DNA of 62,231 nt from positions 1 through 62,231 of the forward strand of contig JBFMDH010000041.1 in assembly GCA_040754075.1 (NCBI GenBank). The letters are read 5' to 3'. The notes below the pieces were generated by a model. It saw nothing but the letters and a program-made list of their open reading frames with translations, did no database searches and had not been told where the DNA came from. A program made the translations under genes and the position numbers. Positions 20,252-26,184 of this stretch are shown here, piece by piece. How positions within the stretch are numbered: position 1 is the stretch's first letter; each line of letters begins with the position of its first letter. The DNA is from Acidobacteriota bacterium. Its GTDB lineage: Bacteria; Acidobacteriota; Blastocatellia; UBA7656.

Positions 20252-20320
20252 AAATTGAAACCGATTCAACAATTTCATCCGTAAGAGATATATCCCACTC
20301 AAAACTTTAAAGGAGCAGAT

Positions 20321-21475
20321 ATGCGAAAACTGATTCTCTTTTCGCTCGCCTGGTTACTTGGCTTGTTGGCAAGTTACCGCGTGCTTGCAGAGACTAAACC
20401 TATGACCATCATATTTGACGAAAAGCCGACAACGGTAAACGTGATGATTTCACCAACGAAAGATGTTTGGGTCACGATGAAGGATTTAACCTTGGCGACC
20501 CGTTACGTTGTTAAACCCCAAGGGATTTGTCGTGATGAACTCTGTTTCCCGATTCCTAAAAATCGCAAGACGCAATTTGTCATGAAACAGGGCAAAACCG
20601 AATGGTTCAATGTTTCAGAATTTGCGCGCCTGGTTAAACAACCGGTCGCCTTCGACGAAAAACATTCGGTCTATTATTTCGGTCCCAGACCGGACGCCCA
20701 GAATGCTCATCTCGAATCTTTGGAAGCGCCAAATTTCACTTTGCCCGATTTAAACGGTAAAAAACATTCGCTCACCGATTTTCGCGGCAAAAAGGTAATG
20801 CTCATCACCTGGGCTTCGTGGTGAGGATGCCGGTTCGATTTGCCAGGCTGGCAAAAACTTTACGCCGAATTGAAAGAAAAAAATTTTGAAATTATTTCCG
20901 TTGCCCAAGACACTGGCGGGGCAAAAGACGCCGCCCCGTGGATAACCAAAACCCCGCTTGAATACACCGTCCTGATTGATGAGACGCACCTGATTACCAG
21001 ACTTTTCGACATGGTCAATGTGCCAACCGCCGTGTGGATAAACGAAGAGGGTCGCATCGTTCGCCCCAATGAAGTTGCCTATGTCGATAATCGTTATAAA
21101 GTGATGACCGGGTTGGATGCCGAAGAATATTTGAATGCCATACGTGATTGGGCAAGTAATGGCGACAAAAGCGAATTCGTATTCAGCGAGGCAGAGTTGA
21201 AAGAGCGACTCGCTCCGCAAAAGGTAGAACACGCGCTGGCATCGGCAGAATTTGCCCTTGCCGAATATTTATCGCATAAAGGATTGGCTGAGGATGCGAT
21301 TGCGCACTATAAGGAGGCGCAACGTCTGAACCCCGATAACTGGAACTATAAACGGCAGGCGTGGGCGCTTACCAATGCTGAACGGGATTACGGAACCAAC
21401 TGGGGCAAGGAAGTTCAAAAACAACAATCAGCCGGTAAACCTTATTATGCTCCGAGAAAATTAAAGAAGCGATAG
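20321..21475 (+). CDS. Secreted thioredoxin-like selenoprotein (TlpA/ResA type), UGA read as Sec
   Basis: One 384-codon gene interrupted by an in-frame TGA at 20822-20824. It has a signal peptide (residues 1-23), an N-terminal domain to about 120 resembling a copper-amine-oxidase N-terminal fold (with C70 and C75), a thioredoxin/redoxin domain (about 133-285), and a C-terminal TPR-like pair (about 310-365). The TGA falls in LITWASW-U-GCRFDLPGW, exactly where TlpA/ResA-type proteins carry the first active-site cysteine, so it would be Sec168 with Cys170. After the TGA the frame runs 216 sense codons of coherent thioredoxin sequence (EIISVAQDT, NVPTAVWINEEGRIVR) to a TAG. A SECIS-like hairpin follows the TGA. 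A nonsense-mutated gene is the alternative; the hairpin and intact frame argue against it. Role: periplasmic thiol-disulfide exchange, by family. Confidence 0.75.
20825..20863 (+). promoter_or_regulatory. Candidate bacterial SECIS element
   Basis: TTTGCCA (20839-20845) and TGGCAAA (20849-20855) form a perfect 7-bp stem around the apical loop GGC, or a 6-bp stem around AGGCT. The loop begins 22 bases after the last base of the UGA. An internal loop and GTT/AAC pairs may extend the stem. Bacterial SECIS hairpins lie right after the UGA within the coding region, with a short loop carrying a G at its start about 16-37 bases downstream, as in E. coli fdhF. This element fits that description and would recruit SelB. 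Confidence 0.65.
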
Positions 21476-22181: not shown

Positions 22182-22258
22182 ATAAACTTTACGAGAGAAC
22201 GACACCAAGCTTCACCATTGGATTGGGTATTAGCCTTGGGCTATTACTCAATCCCCCA

Positions 22259-22783
22259 ATGGCGAACCCAGTGATAAAAATTTTCATACTGGCAAGTGTG
22301 ACAGCGGCAGGCATTTGGGATTTGCGGTATCGGCGAATCCCCAACTGGCTCATCGTGCTGACGGTTTTGCTTTCTCTAAGCTGGCATTCATTTCATGATG
22401 GGCTATCTGGTTTGTGGACAAGTTCGCTCGGCTTGATTGTCGGACTGGCATTCCTCTTTCCCATATATTTAATGCGCGGAATTGGTGCCGGGGACGTTAA
22501 GTTGATGGGCGCGCTTGGAGCGGCAGTTACCTTTAAACATATTTTTACCCTGTTTGTGATTTCTGCCATCATTGCCGGAATAATGGCAATCTTTCAGGCA
22601 ATATGGTCAAAAGCCCTGCTTAAAACGGTTAAAAATATGGGTAGGTTAGGCAAGCATGTTTTACTTGGTCGCCTGAAACCTCACGCAGAGTTGAACATTG
22701 ATAATGACCACGCTTTGAAAATTCCTTTTGGGGTCTCGGTGACTTTTGCGACTTGGTTATTTGTCTTTTTTGGAAGGCAATAA
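22259..22783 (+). CDS. tadV: Prepilin peptidase (TadV/CpaA)
   Basis: A 174-residue integral membrane aspartic peptidase of the A24 family, the minimal TadV/CpaA type without the methylase domain. The two catalytic aspartates are in WDLRYRRIPNW and GAGDVKLMGALGA. It removes the leader peptides of Flp and of the TadE/F pseudopilins in the inner membrane. I use ATG 22259; the frame is open to a TTG at 22223, and neither has a clear ribosome site. The stop codon shares its last base with the ATG of the next gene (TAATG), which couples their translation. Confidence 0.92.
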   Translation: MANPVIKIFILASVTAAGIWDLRYRRIPNWLIVLTVLLSLSWHSFHDGLSGLWTSSLGLIVGLAFLFPIYLMRGIGAGDVKLMGALGAAVTFKHIFTLFVISAIIAGIMAIFQAIWSKALLKTVKNMGRLGKHVLLGRLKPHAELNIDNDHALKIPFGVSVTFATWLFVFFGRQ

Positions 22784-23220
22784 TGAACCGATATACGCAA
22801 AAATCCAGGCAACGCGGCGCTTCGGTAATCGAAGGCGCGCTGGTCTTACTGCTGCTCTTTACTTTGATTTTTACCATCATCGAAGCCGGGCGCATGTTCA
22901 ATGTGCAAAATGTTGTCACCAATGCCGCGCGTGAAGGCGCGCGCTATGCAGTGGTTCCCAATACCGGTACTTCAACCCTCCAACCGGACGCAGATATTCG
23001 TACTCGTGTAACCGCTTTCATGCAATCTTCTTCTATCGAAGGGGCAACGATAACCATCAATGACGGAGCCGGGATAGCTACCCCTGTGGTTATCAACGGA
23101 ATCGAATTTACCAAAGTTCAGGTGTCTGTCCCTTATAGCTTTTTGTCTTTGCCGCTACTGGGCAATATCAGTTTGAACATTAGAGGAACCTCATTGATGC
23201 GCAATGAAACCAGTCCTTAA
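22783..23220 (+). CDS. tadE: TadE-type pseudopilin
   Basis: A 145-residue protein with the TadE signature: a short basic leader, RGASVIEGALVLLLLFTLIFTIIEAGRMF as leader/membrane helix (G12 just before the processing site, E17 at the conserved position), then NVVTNAAREGARYAVV. It is an inner-membrane/periplasmic minor pilin of the Tad system. The ATG at 22783 is supported by GGAAGG six bases upstream. Its last 17 bases overlap the next pseudopilin gene, a sign of tight translational coupling. Confidence 0.88.
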   Translation: MNRYTQKSRQRGASVIEGALVLLLLFTLIFTIIEAGRMFNVQNVVTNAAREGARYAVVPNTGTSTLQPDADIRTRVTAFMQSSSIEGATITINDGAGIATPVVINGIEFTKVQVSVPYSFLSLPLLGNISLNIRGTSLMRNETSP

Positions 23221-23716
23221 ACAAGTGAATAGAAATTGGCGCGGGGAACGCGGCGCGATGGTGATTGAATTAGCCTTAATCCTGCCGTTTCTCCTGGTCT
23301 TGTTTGTGGTAATTGTTGATTTAGGACTACTGATTCGAGAGTATCAAATTCTTCAAAATGCCGCGCGTGAGGGTGCGCGTTTCTCTTCCTTGCCCCAAAA
23401 CTGTATTGCCTGTCGTCCGGTAAATTGTAGTGATTGCCTGGGTGGTTGCAATGCCGCGAATTGTCAAACCCAGGCGCAAATCACCGCTTCAATAAAAACC
23501 AGAGTTGTAACTTATCTCAGTCAGGAAGGCATTACGATAACTGAAAATGATGTGACGGTGAATCAAGGCTATACCATCTCAATCGGTGGGGTGTTCTCAA
23601 CCGCATCAGAAATCGTCGTTACTCATAATCGCCCATTATTGATTGAGGATGTTTTCTTTTTACAAGGCAATGCCGTCAACCTTCGCGGAAGCGCAGTTTT
23701 TCGGAATTTATATTGA
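23204..23716 (+). CDS. Second TadE/TadF-type pseudopilin with a cysteine cluster
   Basis: A 170-residue paralogue of the preceding pseudopilin: RGAMVIELALILPFLLVLF is the leader/membrane region and NAAREGARFSS the conserved block after it. Unlike its neighbour, it carries six cysteines in 23 residues (about 64-86) with spacing CxxC-x4-CxxC-x3-C-x4-C. In the periplasm these could form disulfides or bind metal; neither is shown. The start lies inside the upstream gene. It may correspond to TadF in the classical locus. Confidence 0.85.
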   Translation: MKPVLKQVNRNWRGERGAMVIELALILPFLLVLFVVIVDLGLLIREYQILQNAAREGARFSSLPQNCIACRPVNCSDCLGGCNAANCQTQAQITASIKTRVVTYLSQEGITITENDVTVNQGYTISIGGVFSTASEIVVTHNRPLLIEDVFFLQGNAVNLRGSAVFRNLY

Positions 23717-23755
23717 AGTTTTCCTCACCATTTTTGGAGAACAGGAGGCATGATT

Positions 23756-24715
23756 ATGAATAGAAATCGCATGATAATTTTAGCTTTGTTTGCCATCCTG
23801 ATGAGTGTCGTGGTGGCTTTCCTCGCCTATCGTATGCTCCAGAATCGCTTTGATCCCTCTCAAGATACCATTCAGATTATTGTCGCATTGGAAAAGATTC
23901 CGGTTGGAACCCGGCTCACCGAACAGCAATTGCGGCTTACGACCTGGCCCGCGAATGCTTCACCGGAAGGCAGTTTTAAAGACCCGCAACAGTTAATCGG
24001 ACGCGGTGTCATCGTTCCATTAACCGCCAACGAACCGATACTGGAAACCAAACTCGCACCCAAAGAAGCCGGCGCGGGGTTGACTACGGTAATTCCTGAA
24101 GGGATGCGTGCTGTTTCCGTAAAAGTTGATGATGTGACCGGAGTCGCTGGTTTCGTGACTCCCGGAACTCATGTTGATGTCATCGCTGTCGGTTCGGTTG
24201 AAGGTCGTGATGGCGACCTATCGAAAGTTTTTCTGGAGAACATCGAGGTGCTGGCAGCAGGACAAAATGTCGAAAGAGATGCTCAAGGCAAACCACTCAA
24301 TAACGTTCAAGTGGTCACCTTGTTGGTGACTCCGGCTGATGCTCAAAAACTGGTGCTGGCTTCGGTTGAAAGTCGTATCCGTTTGGCGCTTCGCAATCCA
24401 CTCGATACTGAACAAGCCAATCCGATTGCCTCAAGCAAAACCGGCATTTATACGGGGAGTTCGACGACCTCATCGCCATCTTCGTCACCGGCTGCTGCAC
24501 CAACAACCGAGCCGGCTCCGGTTAAATACAAACCCGTTGTGGTCAGAGTCGCGCCGAGAAAACCTGTCGCTCCCAAACCTGTGGTGACGATACCGCCACC
24601 GACAACCGCCGCCACCCCTCCACCCCAGCCAACCAAAATTACGGTTGAGGTGGAACTGATAAAGGGAGACAAGCGAGAGACTCGGATTTTTGAAAAACAG
24701 CCACCCAATAATTAG
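23756..24715 (+). CDS. cpaB: Flp pilus assembly protein CpaB (RcpC)
   Basis: A 319-residue protein with one N-terminal membrane anchor, an SAF domain (about residues 37-100, VALEKIPVGTRLTEQQL), the RcpC/CpaB domain (GMRAVSVKVDDVTGVAGFVTPGTHVDVIAV; LLVTPADAQKLVLASVE), a long Pro/Thr/Ala/Ser-rich linker (about 225-285), and the terminal VEVELIKGDKRETRIF typical of the family. It acts in the periplasm near the secretin, probably binding peptidoglycan through SAF. Of two nearby ATGs I chose 23756, which lies seven bases after AGGAGG (23743-23748); the ATG at 23750 is too close. Confidence 0.92.
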   Translation: MNRNRMIILALFAILMSVVVAFLAYRMLQNRFDPSQDTIQIIVALEKIPVGTRLTEQQLRLTTWPANASPEGSFKDPQQLIGRGVIVPLTANEPILETKLAPKEAGAGLTTVIPEGMRAVSVKVDDVTGVAGFVTPGTHVDVIAVGSVEGRDGDLSKVFLENIEVLAAGQNVERDAQGKPLNNVQVVTLLVTPADAQKLVLASVESRIRLALRNPLDTEQANPIASSKTGIYTGSSTTSSPSSSPAAAPTTEPAPVKYKPVVVRVAPRKPVAPKPVVTIPPPTTAATPPPQPTKITVEVELIKGDKRETRIFEKQPPNN

Positions 24716-24753
24716 CGCAGGAAACACGCTGCAAAAGGAGAAAATATCTGCCT

Positions 24754-26184
24754 ATGAAAAAACGCACAGGTGTTATCCTCATCTTAATACATCTGTTCAC
24801 GGTTTCTGTGGGAATGGCGCAATCATCACCCGGCGTGGAAATATCCCAACAGCGCACCCGAACCGTCAACAGACCACATATCAACAGCGCCAACGAAATC
24901 AATTTGCAGGGCGCGGAAGAACCCATCACGTTAAGGGTGTTCGCCAATAAATCTCTGGTCTTACGCTCGCCCGAACCCTTGAAACGGGTCTCGGTTACCG
25001 ACCCGGCAATTGCTTCGGCAATCATTGTGTCACCCAATCAAGTCTTGATTCATGGACTGACGCCCGGCAATGTCACGCTCATTCTCTGGGACGATAAAGA
25101 ACGCACACGCTCTTTTGATTTACAAGTGCAACTCGACATCAGCGGTTTGCGGGAAGTATTTCAACAAGTTTTTCCGGGTGAAAATATTCAAGTCAGTCAG
25201 GCTGATTCGTCAATCATTCTCACCGGCATCGTGTCTTCAAAAGAGGTCGCAGACCGCGCCGTGGCGCTTGCCCAAACGCGCGTGAAGAACGTCGTCAATG
25301 TGCTTGGCATTCCGGCAACTCAGGGAGAGATATTGTTACAGGTGCGGTTTGCCGAAGTTGACCGCTCAGCCATTCAACAACTGGGATTGAATGTGTTCAG
25401 CACCGGCGCTGGTCAAACCGTAGGAACGGTTTCTACTCAACAATTCGGTCAGACCCGGGCTGCCGATGTCACCGGCAGAATCCCTGGTCAAAGTGAAGGT
25501 TTTGAAAGCACCTTCACGCTAAGCGACCTTTTAAATGTGTTTATTTTTCGACCGGATTTGAATTTGGGGATAACCTTGCGCGCTTTGCAACAGCGCAATC
25601 TGTTACAGATTCTCGCCGAACCGAATTTGATGGCGCTCGATGGTCGGGAAGCCAGTTTCCTCGCCGGTGGTGAATTTCCCTTCCCGGTCGTGCAAACCGC
25701 AACCGGGCTGAATGCCGTAACCATCATCTTTAAAGAATTCGGTGTGCGCTTGAAATTTACCCCGAATATCTTGCCCGACGGCAAGATTCGATTGAAAGTC
25801 GCGCCGGAAGTCAGCGCCCTTGATTTTGCCAATGCCTTGACGATTTCCGGTTTTCTGGTTCCGGCAATTTCATCGCGTCGCGCAGAAACCGAAATTGAAT
25901 TGCGCGACGGGCAGAGTTTCGCCATCGCCGGTTTGATTGATAATCGGTTGACCGAAATCAGCTCAAAAATCCCCGGTCTCGGCGATATACCGATTATTGG
26001 AAAACTTTTCAAAAGCAAAAGCGTCAATCGCAGTAACACGGAATTATTGGTTATGGTGACCCCGAAATTGGTGAAGCCTTTATCACCCGGGCAAGTGCCA
26101 TCATTGCCAACCTTTCCGAAAAGCTTTTTGGACAAGGACAAATTTGATGGGAAAGTGGGCGTTCCCCCACCGAAAAACAATTAA
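24754..26184 (+). CDS. cpaC: Tad secretin CpaC (RcpA)
   Basis: A 476-residue outer-membrane secretin. It has a signal peptide (about residues 1-22), a pilus-formation N-terminal domain (ANKSLVLRSPEPLKRVSVTD), a BON-like segment (IILTGIVSSKEVADRAVALAQ, about 150-180), and the secretin core (ILAEPNLMALDGREASFLAGGEFPFPV; SSKIPGLGDIPIIGKLFKS) near residues 285-430. It forms the channel through which the pilus leaves the cell. AAGGAG lies upstream of the ATG. The gene follows cpaB closely, and the pair is the conserved RcpC-RcpA order. Confidence 0.95.
   Translation: MKKRTGVILILIHLFTVSVGMAQSSPGVEISQQRTRTVNRPHINSANEINLQGAEEPITLRVFANKSLVLRSPEPLKRVSVTDPAIASAIIVSPNQVLIHGLTPGNVTLILWDDKERTRSFDLQVQLDISGLREVFQQVFPGENIQVSQADSSIILTGIVSSKEVADRAVALAQTRVKNVVNVLGIPATQGEILLQVRFAEVDRSAIQQLGLNVFSTGAGQTVGTVSTQQFGQTRAADVTGRIPGQSEGFESTFTLSDLLNVFIFRPDLNLGITLRALQQRNLLQILAEPNLMALDGREASFLAGGEFPFPVVQTATGLNAVTIIFKEFGVRLKFTPNILPDGKIRLKVAPEVSALDFANALTISGFLVPAISSRRAETEIELRDGQSFAIAGLIDNRLTEISSKIPGLGDIPIIGKLFKSKSVNRSNTELLVMVTPKLVKPLSPGQVPSLPTFPKSFLDKDKFDGKVGVPPPKNN

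Follow-up and report, generated by a model that had tools for sequence, protein, structure and literature searches.

The window, that is, the whole 62,231-nucleotide stretch analysed here (contig JBFMDH010000041.1 of an Acidobacteriota bacterium), carries a gene that very probably encodes an exported selenoprotein of the ResA/TlpA-like WAxxUGC_long family. In this reading, an in-frame UGA is decoded as selenocysteine (Sec) by means of a hairpin just downstream, and Sec168 pairs with Cys170 on a thioredoxin fold. The frame, the conserved TGA, the machinery genes, the co-varying hairpin and the predicted fold were computed, and from there we infer Sec insertion in the cell, export and the chemistry. 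The gene and its parts are the following:

20321..21475 (+): predicted selenoprotein gene, 384 codons including Sec, then TAG
20321..20389 (+): N-terminal hydrophobic segment, signal-peptide-like, called from sequence only
20393..20713 (+): N-terminal alpha/beta domain (pLDDT 91.6 when modelled separately by AF2)
20528..20530 (+): Cys70, invariant in 31/31 aligned proteins
20543..20545 (+): Cys75, invariant in 31/31 aligned proteins
20723..21061 (+): AhpC-TSA/redoxin (TlpA/ResA-like) thioredoxin domain (Pfam PF00578, 2.2e-20)
20822..20824 (+): TGA, predicted selenocysteine 168
20828..20830 (+): Cys170, the Sec partner in the UGC motif, invariant in 31/31
20839..20855 (+): SECIS-like hairpin (stem 20839-20844/20850-20855, loop 20845-20849)
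21188..21430 (+): helical TPR-like tail (weak TPR matches, helices in the model)
21473..21475 (+): TAG stop

A ribosome-binding-site-like AAGGAG, read directly from the sequence, lies at 20310..20315 (+) ahead of the ATG, and the lone interruption of the frame 20321-21475 (+) is the TGA at 20822-20824. The preliminary description had given this frame 167 codons before the TGA and 216 after it, ending in the TAG at 21473-21475; both the coordinates and the counts are right. It had also placed the TGA, after WASW, at the first active-site Cys of TlpA/ResA proteins. Distant CxxC proteins (L026, L028-L031 and L047) carry a TGC or TGT codon at the aligned position. The second active-site Cys is found at +2 (UGC) and not at +3 (UxxC). 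The residues around the TGA read WASW-U-G-C-RFDLPGWQ, and the redox motif, U168-G-C170, thus has one residue fewer than CxxC. Two more positions are likewise invariant in all 31 aligned proteins: residue 168, which is Sec except for the Cys of L055, and Pro235, which we take to be the position of the thioredoxin cis-Pro. A mechanical ORF list cuts the gene into two frames, and the case illustrates how such a list splits a TGA-containing selenoprotein gene.

The homologous codon was compared across 47 distinct family places, drawn from Acidobacteriota and from a Chloroflexota-like phylum (the phylum of G399, which holds L045). It is TGA in 46 of them and TGC in one, L055, which reads WASWCGCRQDL. 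The 47 places consist of the 30 in alignment A1, the window included, together with L067, L080, L071, L105-L117 and L055; the scripts that read the codon sought a TGA or a Cys codon only, and the places are not independent, L105-L116 all coming from one genus. Six loci (L048, L051, L058, L064, L065 and L078) had been removed as duplicates, judged on the 120 bases surrounding the codon; L048, from a genome (G331) of the same family as the window's own (G000), is identical to L041 in that region. L127, with one reported TGA that the scripts left unplaced, stands outside the 47. In the family matches of the genome searches, the in-frame stops were one TGA or none, with no TAA or TAG, and a scan of GTDB genomes gave seven loci, with TGA at the homologous codon in six and TGT in one, a distant CxxC protein. 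Two genomes hold two copies each, every copy with its own TGA (L053/L057 in G077, L054/L117 in G152).

With P0001 as the query, matches were obtained in 10 of 396 phylum genomes (E <= 1e-60) and 14 of 162 class genomes (E <= 1e-50), and with the model NF041054 in 23 of 396 phylum genomes (E <= 1e-40) and 13 of 400 genomes of the Chloroflexota-like phylum (E <= 1e-50). Among plasmid records, 161 had a match, none of which spanned 80% of the query. The 31-protein alignment used 31 of 33 references, leaving out L046, which is truncated, and L069; nor does it include L071 and L105-L117. Downstream of the TGA, pN/pS stayed under 1 in all 30 comparisons, and in 28 of the 30 it was lower than the upstream ratio, with synonymous sites near saturation. 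The preliminary description had proposed looking in homologues for TGA as opposed to TGC or TGT, with random substitutions after the TGA as a sign against its reading; the codon proved to be TGA at every one of the 47 places except L055, and the downstream part is constrained.

The genome (7.58 Mb in 68 contigs) encodes the machinery for Sec incorporation. Profile searches detected selB (383.5 bits against a cut-off of 242.25), selA (565.9 against 267.9) and selD (353.2 against 125), and tRNA-Sec scored 65.5 bits against a gathering threshold of 47; ARAGORN also reported a tRNA-SeC with the anticodon TCA. Thus selA, selB, selC and selD, for which the preliminary description had suggested a search, are all present. 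The selD gene (L011/L101, G000:C29:72690-73613, +) has its own in-frame TGA in SCAGUAAK. Two peroxiredoxin-like loci of the same genome also contain an in-frame TGA, in both cases at an apparent redox site: L038 (G000:C15:125843-126181, -), where it lies in KADTPGUTLEG, the Prx TxxU site, and L037 (G000:C2:280713-281105, +), where it lies in FYRGYWUPYCRK and the start of which looks signal-peptide-like by eye. The presence of selB does not discriminate, as it was also found in all eight tested class genomes that lack the selenoprotein gene and in the genome of the sole Cys member, L055; co-occurrence with selB was therefore dropped as a test of the Sec reading. Three gene-bearing entries, G398, G509 (89% complete) and G732, gave no selB match at E <= 1e-50.

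The hairpin that the preliminary description had reported downstream of the TGA is real. It has a 6-bp stem and a 5-nt loop, AGGCT (20845-20849), with G in the second position; 14 bases separate the TGA from the stem and 20 (20825-20844) from the loop. For bacterial SECIS elements, the legend of Fig 2 in PMC13188914 gives an apical loop of 3-9 nt, an upper stem of 4-16 bp, a G in the first two loop positions, 16-37 nt from the UGA to the apical loop and a minimum free energy of at most -7.5 kcal/mol. The loop AGGCU with G second, the stem of 6 bp and the distance of 20 nt all fall within these ranges. The folding energy of the hairpin itself is marginal: the 17 nt alone give -6.4 kcal/mol, as compared to the -7.5 of the rule, which may apply to a stretch of another length, and 28 of 200 shuffles were as good. 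Within 46 nt, the minimum belongs to a different fold (-10.7, z -0.16, 77 of 200 shuffles as good), and the centroid is the SECIS-like hairpin. An Rfam search of 20700-21000 returned only two matches, at 14.7 and 12.4 bits against gathering thresholds of 50 and 60.

The stem corresponds to columns 24-29 with 35-40 of the alignment (window 20839-20844 with 20850-20855), and is paired in 97.8% of cells over the 30 aligned sequences, where shuffles give 92.9% and slid versions 30-69%; L055, L067, L071, L080 and L105-L117 were read but are outside that alignment. The percentage paired, the cells changed on both sides (16) and the covariation score each exceeded all 500 shuffles. The pairs with a change on both sides (2, with 169 of 500 shuffles as high) and the further pair types (4, with 500 of 500 as high) did not, and relatedness inflates such counts; the separate events may be few. 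Pair 24-40 is CG in 14 sequences and UA in 12, and pair 25-39 is CG in 25 and UA in four. The changes at pair 25-39 are synonymous on both sides, exchanging CTG and TTG for Leu and CAG and CAA for Gln: CTG..CAG occurs in 24 of 30 rows and TTG..CAA, the form of the window, in four, with Leu and Gln kept. L049 has a C.A mismatch at this pair, and the Cys form, L055, has lost both inner pairs. Since the genome has the Sec machinery, the family shows a Sec/Cys replacement and a conserved TGA, and the SECIS-like hairpin co-varies, the assignment of Sec168 made in the preliminary description is supported.

The model of the full protein, built from 31 sequences with Cys put for Sec, reached a pLDDT of 92.3 and a pTM of 0.87. 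Its N-terminal segment contains a helix at residues 2-17, predicted at lower confidence. The middle domain is most similar to DsbE (3gl3, Z 18.3, rmsd 2.3, 140 aligned) and ResA (1st9, Z 17.8, rmsd 2.3, 136 aligned); TlpA (1jfu) follows at Z 15.4, level with AhpC and Bcp entries (15.4-15.8). In Pfam, AhpC-TSA is the best match, at 2.2e-20, and TPR matches are weak, with 27 of the 31 members showing TPR_2 at E values of 0.1 or below.

For the model of the N-terminal domain, 23 of the 31 members were used, and the eight short ones (L068, L070 and L072-L077) were left out. Foldseek found no match to it in the PDB at E <= 0.001, and a profile search of PDB sequences returned none up to E 10. The best VIA-align results were 5h3k (Z 6.6, rmsd 4.1, 96 aligned) and the N-domain of the Caf1A usher (Z 5.7, rmsd 2.9, 80 aligned), likenesses that may reflect only a common arrangement. 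Pfam matches were weak as well, with Cu_amine_oxidN1 in one of 23 members at E 0.065, and the window's own domain had no Pfam match. The N-terminal domain is without a clear solved relative among the PDB searches, and is a reasonable target for structure work.

The surroundings of the gene were compared in 21 stretches, each some 17-18 kb long (the window's and 20 others), keeping the longest of overlapping ORFs, by which real neighbours may be lost. Besides the gene's own two halves and ORFs antisense to it, as read from the coordinates, one family occurred in at least three stretches (4 of 21); we take it to be an AMP-dependent ligase. No recurrent neighbour in the 21 stretches points to a substrate. 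Downstream in the window, at 22223-26184, lie genes of the Tad/Flp-pilus kind, encoding a prepilin peptidase (Peptidase_A24), TadE and a secretin; none of these families was a neighbour of the gene in three or more of the 21 stretches.

Read mechanically, the TGA is a normal stop, and the ORF list splits the gene in two, as would be expected if a nonsense mutation or a sequencing error had broken it and the downstream part were decaying. The same TGA in 46 of the 47 family places and in two phyla, with constraint on the downstream part, leaves practically no probability to a broken gene, which we consider ruled out by the conservation of the TGA. The second frame of the list would also accommodate two products, a 167-residue secreted protein ending at the UGA and a separate C-terminal thioredoxin half from a downstream start such as the TTG at 20840. 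Such an arrangement is extremely improbable, given that the thioredoxin domain spans the TGA, that family members show TGA but no TAA or TAG within the gene, and that L055, with TGC, is one unbroken frame.

Even with Sec at residue 168, the hairpin might be a by-product of the conserved LPGWQ codons, another element directing Sec insertion. It overlaps five well-conserved residues, the energy of the 46-nt piece is no better than that of shuffles, and two of the five covariation measures are not above shuffles. The stem Leu, though, is YTG in 30 of 30 rows, as against other Leu codons at 440 of 1015 Leu positions elsewhere in the same frames; together with the paired synonymous changes and the reduced pairing in the Cys form, this makes the by-product reading very unlikely. 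As for the activity, the AhpC-TSA match and the structural matches to peroxiredoxins, AhpC and Bcp among them (Z about 14-16, on a par with TlpA), would fit a selenoprotein acting as an AhpC/TSA-type peroxidase and not as a thiol-disulfide oxidoreductase. We judge this unlikely, as the DsbE and ResA structures come first (Z 17-18) and as WASWUGC lies at a ResA-type site and not at the Prx TxxU site, which the genome has in L038.

For the selenoprotein reading, we propose the following outline. The hairpin at 20839-20855 would direct SelB, together with tRNA-Sec, to insert Sec at the UGA of 20822-20824, and the protein would then be exported. Sec168 and Cys170, with one Gly between them, would form a selenenylsulfide/selenol pair on the thioredoxin fold; the attack on the substrate would come from Sec168, with Cys170 as the resolving residue. 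Electron relay or the binding of a partner is a possible role for the Cys70/Cys75 pair, and partner binding one for the TPR-like tail. Most likely, the protein is an exported thiol-disulfide (selenenylsulfide) oxidoreductase, the roles of reductase, isomerase and peroxidase not being told apart here. Isomerase-like chemistry from the UGC site is thinkable at most. More specifically, and as a rather doubtful proposal, the protein could be a two-centre selenoenzyme in which the N-terminal Cys70-x4-Cys75 relays electrons to or from Sec168-Gly-Cys170, the one-residue spacing favouring isomerase-like chemistry over plain reduction.

The N-termini vary within the family. L055 and L052, members from the Acidobacteriota phylum, begin with RR-containing, Tat-like sequences (MDRRDFIQLGG and MQRRHFLWSLG), unlike the start of the window's protein. 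Eight Chloroflexota-like members (L068, L070 and L072-L077) seem, by the chosen start codons, to lack a signal peptide and to begin directly with the N-terminal domain, and so the cell compartment may differ between the two phyla.

The protein scores 312.1 bits with NF041054 (WAxxUGC_long, an NCBIfam equivalog described as 'ResA-like WAxxUGC motif-containing protein'), above its cut-off of 300, and has the WAxxUGC motif that the family requires, in the form WASWUGC. This model matches 31 of 31 aligned homologues at E <= 0.001, and its cut-off is passed in 19 of the 23 matching phylum genomes and 12 of the 13 in the Chloroflexota-like phylum. The motif and the long architecture are shared, but the window protein clears the cut-off by little, as against 565.5 bits for a Chloroflexota-like member, and some Acidobacteriota homologues fall below it. 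The window protein also has the N-terminal hydrophobic segment that the eight Chloroflexota-like members of NF041054 lack by their chosen start codons. The preliminary description had supposed that the combination of this N-terminal domain with a TPR-like tail might be undescribed; since NF041054 exists and the protein passes its cut-off, this does not hold. The protein is an added member of an already catalogued family, long form included.

Under other names, proteins of similar description appear in the literature. A GOS survey of 2008 lists 'Prx-like (UGC-containing)', pfam00578, with 46 sequences (PMC2398784), a 2022 review names a 'UGC-containing Prx-like protein' (PMC9312934), and a 2026 review a 'UGC-containing TlpA disulfide reductase family protein' (PMC13188914). 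An AhpC-TSA/TlpA domain and the UGC motif are common to these entries and to the window protein, the likeness being one of description and not of accession. The main text of PMC5029168, as far as accessible, contains no 'UGC-containing', 'TlpA' or 'Acidobacteri'. The family name 'WAxxUGC' was not found in the literature searched, in a search that was not exhaustive. To the catalogued family, the present gene adds a clean case that combines a Sec/Cys pair with a co-varying SECIS-like hairpin.

The active site of ResA, TlpA and DsbE/CcmG is CxxC. With the ResA model NF002854, the window protein scores 77.1 bits against a cut-off of 170, and it has U-G-C in place of the CxxC expected of ResA. The fold of the thioredoxin domain is common to ResA of Bacillus, TlpA, DsbE/CcmG and the window protein, which, unlike them, combines a U-G-C site with an N-terminal domain and a TPR-like tail.
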